Source: Ignatzschineria sp. RMDPL8A
GTDB lineage: Bacteria > Pseudomonadota > Gammaproteobacteria > Cardiobacteriales > Wohlfahrtiimonadaceae
Assembly (NCBI RefSeq): GCF_029815055.1
Contig: NZ_JAPPWA010000002.1
Location: 992,001 to 1,056,000, forward strand
Reading direction: 5' to 3'
DNA length: 64,000 nucleotides
Shown: positions 45,069-49,633 of the stretch, one piece after another
Numbering within the stretch: position 1 is the stretch's first letter
Layout: each line of letters starts with the position of its first letter
The notes under the pieces: generated by a model
What the model saw: only the letters and a program-made list of their open reading frames with translations
Database searches by the model: none
What the model was told of the DNA's origin: nothing
Position numbers and translations under genes: made by a program

Positions 45069-45965
45069 ATGTTAAAAGTTACACCGCCCAAGCAATCCCC
45101 TAAAGCGAAAACCGATGGCGTGACCACTGCCAGTCAAAAGCAGAGTCCTGAAGCTCAAAAAAAAGCGAGTAAGCCAAAGAAGAAGCGTAAAGCATCGGGC
45201 TCATCGCTCGGATGGGGTTTTTTCCAAGGATTTAATCTATTTTTAACCTTTGTGATCCTGCTCGGGCTCGGCATTGTGACCTATATTATGGTGGGCGGTG
45301 AAAATCGTCATCAAGGGTTGCCAAAATATGTGCTCGATCAAGCGACGGATAACGGTCAGGTGATTTTTAATCCGCAAATTCCTGAAGAGGTGCGCCAAAG
45401 TTATATCTATGTGCCACCGGTGAAAGAGGAGATCAATGCAGAAGAGCTCGAGCAGATCGAGCAGATTGCCAAAGCCCCTGATTTTGATCTAAAACTCTCA
45501 AGTGTAGGGGAAACAGTGGGGCAAGGTGAAGGGTCATCAACTGCAACTGATGATCAAGATTCGCTCCCTAAGTTATCACTTACCTCTGTTGGTAGTGATG
45601 CACTGAATGATGCAAATGCTGAAGATTTTGAGTTGGAACGGGCGCAAGTTCAAATCGAAAGTTTTATCGATCAAGCGCAACATGCGATGTCTGAGGGGCG
45701 TTATGTTGGCGTGAATCATGATGATGCGTACTATTTTTATACGCAAGTACTCTTTTTAGATGTCGAGAATCCAGTCGCGAAAGCAGGGCTTCATGACATT
45801 GCCAATCTCTACTTCCAAAATGCGCAAAAAGCGCTTTATGAAGGGGATCTCACCAATGCAGAGACCTTTATTAAGGTGGGGCTAGTAGTGATGCCAAATC
45901 ATCGTGAACTCTTGCAGCTTGAAGATGAGTTTAAACGCTATTTAGAAACCATGCGCCTCAATTAG
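45069..45965 (+). CDS. Hypothetical membrane protein with C-terminal helical repeat
   Basis: 298 residues I do not recognise. The N-terminal 45 are Lys/Pro/Ser-rich and cytoplasmic; one membrane span lies at about 55-76 (FLTFVILLGLGIVTYIMVGG); a long acidic linker follows; and a C-terminal TPR-like helical domain (about 195-298) has AMSEGRYVGVNHDDAYYFY, NAQKALYEGDLTNAETF and pairs of helices. It ends the run from pilM and is followed by a terminator. The domain type is my reading of the helix pattern. Confidence 0.7.
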   Translation: MLKVTPPKQSPKAKTDGVTTASQKQSPEAQKKASKPKKKRKASGSSLGWGFFQGFNLFLTFVILLGLGIVTYIMVGGENRHQGLPKYVLDQATDNGQVIFNPQIPEEVRQSYIYVPPVKEEINAEELEQIEQIAKAPDFDLKLSSVGETVGQGEGSSTATDDQDSLPKLSLTSVGSDALNDANAEDFELERAQVQIESFIDQAQHAMSEGRYVGVNHDDAYYFYTQVLFLDVENPVAKAGLHDIANLYFQNAQKALYEGDLTNAETFIKVGLVVMPNHRELLQLEDEFKRYLETMRLN

Positions 45966-46081: not shown

Positions 46082-47689
46082 CTATTCAATCGGATCGGCA
46101 AGTGCGCCGGTATATTTTCGGTGTAGATCATGCCACGATTTTGAAAGTGCTTTTGTGGTGAAATAGGGCCCTGGTAATCGATAGCGGTTATAAAGATTAT
46201 TAAGATCGATCTGTTTAGCGATGCGAGTGACAAGCTCAAGATCATGATCAAACTGGGCGATATACTCTTCCGTTTCACGGCGATCAAGATAACGAAACAG
46301 GATCTGATCGACCTCTTTAAAGGAGAGTTCAGCCCCGTCACACACATTCGGGTGGCGGAAAATCTCACTTTTTGCACCAGCCATCACCTCTTTGTTTAAA
46401 AGTTTGCCTTCAAGATCACGATAATCGGCAAGGCGTAAAATATCCGTGCGGTACAGGTCAATAAAAGGCATATAGTGGCCGGCTGCGGTCATTCCGTGAC
46501 CTTTAAGTTTCAGCTTAATTTGGGTTTTATTAATCGGCCCGAGCACAATGGCGTTATGCAGATCACTAAAGGCAAGGAGTAATCCTTTTTTGTAGCGGTC
46601 AACGCTCTCTTCTGCCCAATTAATTGGGGGATCGATTGAGGCATCTTTCCGTTTTGACATTAATGCATTGCGTAGGTGATCTTTATTGATGTCATATTCA
46701 TAAAGACGTACGTTGAGGCGTTTACAGAGCGTACGAATATTTTTAAGATCGCTTGGAAGATCATCGGCGGTGGTAAAGTGAACGGGATAAACCTTATCAG
46801 CTCCGAGCGCATCGACGGCAAGCGTTAACAGAAGATGGGATTCTAAGCATTTACCGATATAGAGTGTTACTTTATCTTCTGGTACATAATTGAGCATCTC
46901 TTGGAGACCAAACATCAGTGCGCGGTAGAGCGTTGCATCTAAATGTTCTTGCACCTCTAACGGTGGCAATTTGTTAATGGTATCAATATCAAAGAGCACG
47001 TGCCCTTCGTTAAACCGTTTGCCCCCACCGACCTGTTCGCCTCGGTCATTAATCACCATGGCATAGCCTGAAAAAATAAATTGATCGCAGGAGGTGAGCG
47101 CATTGGAGATAATGATGGGAGTTTGAATGGTTTTTGCGGTAGTTTGAAAGGCATTTCGATTGGTAAGATGGCGACGATTACTCCAGTGAAACGCACTCAT
47201 CAATAAAAGCGCATCGCATTTTGGGAGACGATTAGGGTCGAGGAAGTCTTCGCTGATTGCAATCCCGATTGTCTTGCCTTTAATGGTGAAAGTGGTTGGC
47301 TTATCGCCCTGCGAAATATAGTAATTTTCCATCACAAGCTCAGTGGAGGAGAGTGTGCCTTTTCGGTGAATTCCAAGGATTTGCCCATTTTTGACAATCG
47401 CAGCGCTACTATAGAGAGAATGATGATCGCGCTCAGGGAAGCCAACGATGGCCACAATATCGGTGGAATGATGGGCGATCTCATAGAGTGCCTCGCGAGC
47501 GTCATCGATAAACTTAGGTTTTAAGAGATAATCGCTGGCCCCGTAGCCTGAAATCGTCAGTTCAGGGAAGAGGATAATATCGGCATTTGATTGTTTTGCC
47601 TGTGTGATCGCAGCTAAAATGCGCTTTTTATTATACTCGATATGTCCCGGCACGGTTTTCAATTGGGTCACTGCAATGGTTAATGTCAT
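46082..47689 (-). CDS. NadE-like two-domain protein, both active sites degenerate
   Basis: Has the length (535) and domain order of glutamine-dependent NAD synthetase: N-terminal nitrilase-like glutaminase (1-245) and C-terminal synthetase (255-535). The glutaminase keeps E43 (FPELTISGYG) and K110 but the nucleophile Cys is S146 (GIAISEDF). In the synthetase the pyrophosphate loop SGGIDS is GKCLES (279-284) and the TTGNKSE and LYGDMAGGF motifs are GPINKTQ and GHGMTAAGH. AVDALGADKV (291-300) next to the loop is perfectly kept, so the alignment is safe. No frameshift or stop, so it is not a simple pseudogene. A pseudoenzyme or a new activity is inferred; a working nadE must exist elsewhere if NAD is made this way. 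Confidence 0.85.
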   Translation of the reverse strand: MTLTIAVTQLKTVPGHIEYNKKRILAAITQAKQSNADIILFPELTISGYGASDYLLKPKFIDDAREALYEIAHHSTDIVAIVGFPERDHHSLYSSAAIVKNGQILGIHRKGTLSSTELVMENYYISQGDKPTTFTIKGKTIGIAISEDFLDPNRLPKCDALLLMSAFHWSNRRHLTNRNAFQTTAKTIQTPIIISNALTSCDQFIFSGYAMVINDRGEQVGGGKRFNEGHVLFDIDTINKLPPLEVQEHLDATLYRALMFGLQEMLNYVPEDKVTLYIGKCLESHLLLTLAVDALGADKVYPVHFTTADDLPSDLKNIRTLCKRLNVRLYEYDINKDHLRNALMSKRKDASIDPPINWAEESVDRYKKGLLLAFSDLHNAIVLGPINKTQIKLKLKGHGMTAAGHYMPFIDLYRTDILRLADYRDLEGKLLNKEVMAGAKSEIFRHPNVCDGAELSFKEVDQILFRYLDRRETEEYIAQFDHDLELVTRIAKQIDLNNLYNRYRLPGPYFTTKALSKSWHDLHRKYTGALADPIE

Positions 47690-47701: not shown

Positions 47702-47718
47702 ATTGACAAGTCGTCAAT
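47702..47718. promoter_or_regulatory. Inverted repeat upstream of the NadE-like gene
   Basis: ATTGAC-N5-GTCAAT, 13-29 bp before the start codon on the minus strand. It may be an operator or a leader hairpin; function unknown. Confidence 0.3.
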
Positions 47719-47870: not shown

Positions 47871-47922
47871 AAAAAAGCCTCGATTTTGATGGGATATCAT
47901 CATAAATCGAGGCTTTTTTTTA
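47871..47922 (-). terminator. Intrinsic terminator after ftsY
   Basis: A 12-13-bp stem (outer arms AAAGCCTCGATTT / AAATCGAGGCTTT) is followed on the minus strand by six T (from the A-run at 47871) and lies 14 bp past the ftsY stop. The T-run on the right makes it usable in both directions. Confidence 0.85.
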
Positions 47923-47935
47923 CAGAAATATTAAC

Positions 47936-49465
47936 TTATGCTTTGTATTGAATAAGCGCTTCCACAAACTCTTTTGCATTAAAGGGACGAAGATCATCGA
48001 TCCCTTCACCCACGCCGATAAAGCGCACCGGAATCTTAAGCTCATCCGCAATGGCAAAGATAATTCCGCCTTTTGCCGTTCCGTCCATTTTGGTAAATGA
48101 GATGCCCGATAGGGGGACAAATTCATTAAATTGACGGGCTTGGTTGAGCGCATTTTGCCCCGTTCCCGCATCAACGACGAGCATCACTTCATGAGGCGCA
48201 GTCTCATCTAAACGTTTTGTGACGCGGTGAATTTTCTCAAGTTCTTTCATAAGGCCTGAATCGGTATGGAGGCGACCGGCGGTATCGGCAATTAAGATAT
48301 CGACCTTTTTCGCTTTCGCCGATTCGATCGCATCAAAAATTACTGACGCAGGGTCAGCGCCATCTTTTTGTGACACGACGGGAATATGATTGCGCTCGCC
48401 CCATACTTTTAGCTGTTCAACGGCGGCAGCACGGAAAGTATCGCCAGCGGCAAGCATGACAGATTTACCTTCAGCTTGGAATTTTTTCGCCAATTTTCCA
48501 ATGGTGGTGGTTTTACCCACGCCATTAACGCCCACCATTAAGATTATATAGGGCGCTTTAGTATTGTCGATTACGAGCGGTTCTTCCACCGGCGTTAAAA
48601 TCTCTTCCATTTTGTGGCTGAGCGCCTTAAAGAGTTCATCTTGATTTGATAACGCTTTACGCGAAACTTCTTCGCGGATCGATTCAAGCATGCGTTCGGT
48701 GGCGTTAATGCCAACATCTGCAAGGAGAAGGCGGGTTTCGAGCTCTTCTAAAATCTCATCATCAATCTCTTTTTTCCCTAAGAAGAGATCGGCAAAGCCT
48801 TCAGTAAGGCCAGCGCTTGTTTTCGCGAGTTGTTTTTTAAGGCGTGCAAAAAAGCCCTGTTTTTTCGGTTTTTCTTGGGTTTCCTGTGTGGGCGCAGGCG
48901 TTTCGGGTTCGGGATCAACCTCGGTCTCTACTTCAGTTTTAGTGACGGATTCAGTTACTGTAGACTCGATAGCTGCAGGCTCATCTGGATCTTCGGCAAT
49001 AGGCTCAGGCGTTGACGGCTCGTCCTGAATCTTTTCAATCTCTACAATCTCCTCATCTGAATCATCTTCGAGCGCTTCTAGATCGTCCTCTGATTCTTCA
49101 TCTGTATCATCATCAGCGGAATCATCAAACATAAATGCATCGGTGAGTTCATTGGCAAATGCATTAAGATCGCGAGGGGATTCCGTTTCGCTCATCTCTT
49201 CGAGAGTTTTGTCTAAAACTTGTTCAGCTTCATCGACTGTTTCGGGCGATGATTCGAATGAATCTGGTTCAGGGGTGATCGCTTCAGGCGCGGTTTCCGT
49301 TCCAATATCTGTGGAAGAAGGGGCGTCTGAAACCGCTTTTTCTTCTGAAACGGGCGCGAAATCAGCATCATTTTTGACTGAATCTTCTACAACTTCAGGG
49401 GCTTCATCTTTTGAAGAACCGCCAAATAATCGGCTAAACCAGCCTCTTTTCGTTTTTTTTGTCAT
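47936..49465 (-). CDS. ftsY: Signal recognition particle receptor FtsY
   Basis: GTPase that docks SRP-ribosome complexes at the inner membrane. A basic N-terminal KKTKRGWFSRLFG leads into a long acidic A domain (about 20-215, rich in Glu/Asp/Thr), then the NG domain. G1 is GVNGVGKTTTIGKLA, G2/I-box AGDTFRAAAVEQL, G3 DTAGRLHTDSGLMKEL, G4 TKMDGTAKGG and the C-terminal GVGEGIDDLRPF. The frame is open to 49510 but ATG 49465 gives the standard start and 509 residues. No ftsE/ftsX follows. Confidence 0.95.
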   Translation of the reverse strand: MTKKTKRGWFSRLFGGSSKDEAPEVVEDSVKNDADFAPVSEEKAVSDAPSSTDIGTETAPEAITPEPDSFESSPETVDEAEQVLDKTLEEMSETESPRDLNAFANELTDAFMFDDSADDDTDEESEDDLEALEDDSDEEIVEIEKIQDEPSTPEPIAEDPDEPAAIESTVTESVTKTEVETEVDPEPETPAPTQETQEKPKKQGFFARLKKQLAKTSAGLTEGFADLFLGKKEIDDEILEELETRLLLADVGINATERMLESIREEVSRKALSNQDELFKALSHKMEEILTPVEEPLVIDNTKAPYIILMVGVNGVGKTTTIGKLAKKFQAEGKSVMLAAGDTFRAAAVEQLKVWGERNHIPVVSQKDGADPASVIFDAIESAKAKKVDILIADTAGRLHTDSGLMKELEKIHRVTKRLDETAPHEVMLVVDAGTGQNALNQARQFNEFVPLSGISFTKMDGTAKGGIIFAIADELKIPVRFIGVGEGIDDLRPFNAKEFVEALIQYKA

Positions 49466-49633
49466 CGACAATCCTAATAACAGTTGAAAATATAAAAAAA
49501 TGTGTAACAATATAGACCTACTGTATTTTAACAGGTTGCACTTTGAATTGTTACTCCGAATTCAGCACGAATCGGATGACAAATTAGAAATTTGAACATA
49601 TTGTTCGATTTTTGATAAAAGGGCATAAAAGTC

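Follow-up and report, generated by a model that had tools for sequence, protein, structure and literature searches.

The P0001 gene and its surroundings

The window analysed here is a stretch of 64,000 nucleotides from Ignatzschineria sp. RMDPL8A. On its minus strand, at positions 46082-47689, lies an open reading frame that begins with ATG and encodes a protein of 535 residues (P0001), followed by a stop codon and interrupted by no internal stops. A preliminary description of this DNA had assigned to the frame the domain order of glutamine-dependent NAD synthetase (NadE-Gln), and profile searches bear this out: an N-terminal CN_hydrolase domain is fused to a C-terminal NAD_synthase domain. 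The Pfam match to CN_hydrolase covers residues 4-236 with 63 bits, above the cut-off of 23.2, which places this half in the nitrilase-superfamily fold; the match to NAD_synthase covers residues 257-497 with 44.9 bits, also above its cut-off. The nitrilase-like domain, a former glutaminase, is delimited here as residues 3-238 (46976-47683, minus strand), and the former NAD synthetase domain as residues 252-510 (46160-46936, minus strand). The best solved relative is the glutamine-dependent NAD synthetase of A. baumannii (5kha), which aligns over residues 4-518 and hence essentially the full length of P0001 (E 3.5e-42). In length, domain order, predicted fold, alignment register and the Glu/Lys/Glu residues of the glutaminase site, P0001 resembles the NadE-Gln proteins as a group (NF010588/PRK13981; 5kha, 4f4h, 3n05). 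However, against the NCBIfam NAD+ synthase model NF010588 it scores 224.6 bits, less than half of the curated cut-off of 479 bits; its homologues in genus g4 of the same family score 250-308 bits, and a canonical control scores 761.

With canonical NadEs included in the alignment, an AlphaFold model has a pLDDT of 85.6 and resembles solved NAD synthetases, with a TM-score of about 0.85 to 3n05. When the alignment was limited to the seven distinct sequences of the clade to which P0001 belongs, the pLDDT fell to 75.8, so that the claim for the fold rests mainly on homology.

Upstream of the P0001 gene lies ftsY (47936-49510, minus strand), whose product is extended at the N-terminus by a long acidic segment, about 200 residues in length, ahead of its SRP54_N domain. 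The possibility that the two genes form an operon was rejected, since ftsY is followed by a strong hairpin and T-run (AAAAAAAGCCTCGATTT...AAAATCGAGGCTTTTTT; 47871-47920, minus strand) that, on inspection, has the form of a terminator parting the two genes; because of this terminator, the setting of the P0001 gene is judged to be monocistronic. Just upstream of the AAGG Shine-Dalgarno sequence of the gene is a perfect palindrome, ATTGAC-N5-GTCAAT (47702-47718). It is the sole copy in the window, where 0.25 copies are expected by chance at no more than one mismatch, and it could be an operator or a chance occurrence. Elsewhere nearby, positions 45069-45965 of the plus strand encode a protein of 298 residues with an apparent single membrane span and, by eye, a repeat-like C-terminus, which has no Pfam or NCBIfam matches.

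The neighbours of the gene are not conserved. In genus g1, that of the window, the gene lies beside ftsY, whereas in g4 it lies beside the Bax inhibitor-1 (BI-1) gene and recN; no gene neighbourhood is common to the two genera. Consequently, synteny yields no hint of function. (In one g4 genome, G014, the Bax inhibitor-1 gene at positions 8713-9739 of L057 seems to be partly duplicated or misassembled, and an ambiguous base is present.) A role in phage defence was also considered and set aside, as PADLOC gave no matches and the PHROG match is to an ordinary NadE.

The glutaminase and synthetase sites

Within the N-terminal domain, the residue that aligns with the nucleophilic Cys of the ICED motif in 5kha is Ser146 (codon AGC, 47252-47254, this and the following residues being encoded on the minus strand). 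This position is Cys in 29 of 29 canonical NadEs and Ser in all eight clade genomes. The remainder of the site is kept. Glu43 (47561-47563), the catalytic Glu of the nitrilase triad, is invariant in the seven clade proteins and the 29 canonical ones, and Tyr49 (47543-47545), the catalytic Lys110 (47360-47362), Glu121 (47327-47329), which is the second Glu and lies in the YRE loop, and Glu147 are likewise invariant across all clade homologues. Thus, of the Glu-Lys-Glu-Cys set of active nitrilases, only the nucleophile has been exchanged, and always for Ser. By our own alignment to the published numbering, Glu43, Tyr49, Lys110, Glu121 and Glu147 correspond to Glu52, Tyr58, Lys121, Glu132 and Glu177 of M. 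tuberculosis NadE, for which the roles of Tyr58, Lys121 and Glu132 have been described (PMC6946656). One further change distinguishes this pocket: the Ser of the NASP motif, present in 29 of 29 canonical NadEs, is replaced by Phe167 (47189-47191) in all seven clade proteins.

The C-terminal domain has fared differently. The sequence GKCLES (residues 279-284; 46838-46855, minus strand) aligns on the SGGIDS pyrophosphate loop of 5kha, with AVDALGADKV in register downstream, and because the alignment to 5kha extends across residues 4-518, the positions assigned to the lost motifs can be relied on. In addition, GDMAGG is replaced by MTAAGH (46475-46492, minus strand) and NKSE by NKTQ (46520-46531, minus strand). 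The loop reads GKCLES in g1 versus MDG[ST][LI][NS][SC]Q in g4; there is therefore no common replacement motif. Arg365, Lys388 and Asp411 of this domain are still invariant in the clade. Overall, P0001 keeps 19 of 41 canonical-invariant positions in the N-terminal domain and 22 of 74 in the C-terminal domain; a comparison of catalytic-residue retention between the domains on a residue set picked by hand gives p = 0.05, which is only suggestive.

These alignments uphold the earlier reading of Ser146 alongside a retained Glu43 and Lys110, and that of GKCLES in place of SGGIDS. The statement that both NKSE and GDMAGG are lost holds for GDMAGG, but the Asn and Lys of NKSE are kept. Similarly, the view that both active sites are destroyed applies to the synthetase and not to the glutaminase, which has exchanged its nucleophile alone. 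As for conservation across the clade, Ser146 is found in all eight genomes, but GKCLES is not, since the g4 loop differs.

Distribution, NAD supply and constraint

Full-length homologues, 535-538 residues long, are present in eight of eight genomes of genera g1 and g4 (two g1 genomes of one species and six g4 genomes, giving seven distinct sequences). SGGxDS is absent from every one of these homologues, whereas Cys and SGG[IV]DS are both present in all 29 of the canonical NadEs drawn from the class. P0001 is therefore not a lone decayed copy among normal homologues, a possibility that the preliminary description had named as fatal to its proposal. Identity is 29% between g1 and g4 and 50-95% within g4. 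A tree places the eight clade members on one side of a fully supported branch, although, with branches this long, attraction could play a part. Twelve clade-specific switches, each to the same residue in all seven distinct sequences (G50, A51, K57, S94, S146, C158, F167, D310, D364, K367, T389 and G452), argue for a shared ancestor that had already diverged. More distant members of the clade were not found: there were none over an E-value of 1e-86 among 278 relatives, and across 369 genomes of the class the next score below the query was 284 bits, from a canonical NadE. A 726-residue protein of G018 was considered as another possible degenerate NadE of this order, but it carries both SGGLDS and ICED and belongs to the canonical long type.

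In genus g3, none of the nine genomes has the gene. In a quick tree of FtsY, g3 stands beside g1 with g4 outside (SH-aLRT 94), making g3 the likely sister of g1. With this topology, the simplest history would be that the gene was present in the common ancestor and was then lost in g3. Since g3 does without the gene, its role is dispensable in the family.

The NAD supply of these organisms appears to be met by another protein. The window's genome encodes an intact ammonia-dependent NadE of 250 residues with SGGVDS, scoring above the TIGR00552 cut-off, and its gene adjoins pncB (nicotinate phosphoribosyltransferase). This short NadE shares the NAD_synthase fold with the C-terminal half of P0001 but, unlike it, retains the loop motif and has no nitrilase domain; it is likely to be a working NAD synthetase. 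It is also present in the g3 and g4 genomes. The search for a second, intact nadE that had been proposed earlier thus succeeds. In contrast, no canonical NadE matching NF010588 was found in any genome of the order, so that the term paralogue, applied to P0001 earlier, does not strictly fit: no full-length NadE is left for it to be a paralogue of. The short NadE probably displaced the full-length gene, which was then repurposed. (In G031, a genome of the same order but of family f4 that is listed as 100% complete, no convincing NAD synthetase was found; that organism may use a NadE-independent route to NAD.)

Selection on the gene is purifying. For G012 and G015, the only inter-species pair with unsaturated dS (the remaining g4 pairs are saturated), dN/dS is 0.047 by NG86 and 0.050 by YN00 at a protein identity of 94.8%; the two g1 genomes differ by three synonymous and two non-synonymous changes. 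Together with the presence of the gene in eight of eight genomes and the second NadE, these values agree with the earlier proposal of a NadE derivative that is maintained by selection without the synthetase motifs. By sequence, the combination of clade-wide loss of catalytic residues and persisting coding constraint is that expected of a pseudoenzyme, although Ser146 might itself act as a nucleophile. Moreover, the constraint now falls more heavily on the N-terminal domain, the reverse of what is seen in canonical NadEs. Pairs of canonical proteins have a mean identity of 46.3% in the N-terminal domain and 58.6% in the C-terminal domain, whereas P0001 and the g4 proteins share 34.9% and 22.9%, respectively. 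The clade has 58 invariant columns in the N-terminal domain versus 36 in the C-terminal domain; random sets of seven canonical proteins (300 draws) average 55 versus 87, with an N/C ratio that is never above 0.81.

The codon at position 146 bears on how the Ser arose. The g1 genomes use AGC at this position, and the g4 genomes TCT or TCG. The AGC and TCN boxes of Ser are not connected by a single base change, while each is one step from the TGY codons of Cys. Such switches between boxes are rare: at six (nearly) invariant Ser sites of canonical NadEs, the minority box accounts for 2 of 173 codons. Because the boxes differ between g1 and g4, the change from Cys to Ser probably happened twice, this being favoured over a single change followed by a codon switch. 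As a caveat, the Ser at position 170 is likewise divided between codon boxes in the clade; the S167F and N94S changes use the same box throughout. If there were two separate swaps, the g1/g4 ancestor may still have had Cys146 at a time when S167F and N94S were already in place. Among the residues one step away from Cys, Ser is the commonest, and it is also the most accessible replacement, so its arising twice is not very improbable, and the double change would be moderate evidence of selection on Ser itself.

What the protein may do

The reading we prefer, to which we give a probability of about one half, is that P0001 descends from glutamine-dependent NAD synthetase, persists under selection in one family as a pseudoenzyme, and uses its nitrilase-like pocket to bind a ligand that it does not turn over. 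Once the short NadE had taken over NAD synthesis, the long protein would have been freed. Its kept pocket (Glu43, Tyr49, Lys110, Glu121, Glu147 and Ser146) could then hold a ligand that has an amide or carboxylate group and leave it unhydrolysed, the glutamine side having been reshaped by Phe167, and the former synthetase domain would serve as a scaffold or a partner surface. We infer that such a protein, an amidotransferase no longer, would act as a sensor or regulatory subunit. A bolder reading, which we offer tentatively, is that two lineages of the family separately swapped Cys for Ser in a displaced NAD synthetase, and that the relic glutaminase became a nitrilase-fold protein of a new kind. 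It would either hydrolyse substrates through its Ser nucleophile or sense a ligand, and the synthetase domain would provide its output.

The main rival is a hydrolase or acyl-transferase in which Glu43, Lys110 and Glu121 activate Ser146 on an ester, a thioester or an activated amide, glutamine being no longer a substrate because Ser167 has become Phe. It would account for the retention of the catalytic frame in all homologues, for a replacement that is also nucleophilic and probably arose twice, and for the N-terminal domain being the more constrained half. Nevertheless, Cys-to-Ser variants in the nitrilase superfamily serve structural studies as inactive mutants that trap ligands; the C158S entries of N-carbamoylputrescine amidohydrolase (5h8k/5h8l), which are among the fold matches of the P0001 model, are an example. 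A nitrilase with a natural Ser nucleophile is not known to us, and searches of the openly accessible literature yielded descriptions of neither such an enzyme nor a NadE pseudoenzyme. We consider this rival unlikely.

Slightly less probable is a role confined to the protein's surface, for instance in a structural complex with the short NadE or some other enzyme, with the pocket residues retained for stability of the fold. Canonical NadEs are oligomeric, ranging from dimers to octamers, and both the intact predicted fold and the invariant Arg365, Lys388 and Asp411 would suit such a role. However, the glutaminase frame persists while other canonical invariants in both domains are freely lost, and g3 carries this short NadE but lacks the P0001 gene.

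Continued NAD synthesis by means of the altered motifs, or a role as glutaminase subunit for the short NadE, is very improbable: the domain order and several synthetase positions are retained and certain NadE systems do consist of two subunits (PMC3376133), but SGGxDS, GDMAGG and the nucleophile are gone, Ser167 is Phe in all homologues, the window's genome encodes an intact NadE besides, and g3 lives on the short NadE alone. A neutrally decaying relic in which a stop codon has yet to arise would fit the fast divergence between g1 and g4 and the loss in g3, but is already contradicted by the low dN/dS, the full-length frames and the invariant pocket.

A regulatory role would not be without precedent, as NadE-Gln is regulated by PII, and control by way of its glutaminase domain has been described (PMC7196632; PMC7646526). 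In this case, however, the partner cannot be PII itself, for searches of the window's genome and 16 further genomes of the family gave no match to PII (GlnB/GlnK, PF00543). The absence of PII from these 17 genomes contrasts with most genomes of the order's other families.

Pseudoenzymes of central cofactor metabolism are rarely caught with a clear history. Here a single family would display the enzyme that took over, its dead relative, a sister genus with loss of the gene and two routes to the nucleophile swap. The annotation of the clade proteins as NAD+ synthase is cautioned against. Compared with the amidases of the nitrilase superfamily (Nit2, N-carbamoylputrescine amidohydrolase), they share the Glu-Lys-Glu frame and the alpha-beta-beta-alpha fold, but differ in having Ser for the catalytic Cys in every member and in their fusion to a former synthetase domain; they thus offer this superfamily a natural Cys-to-Ser test case.
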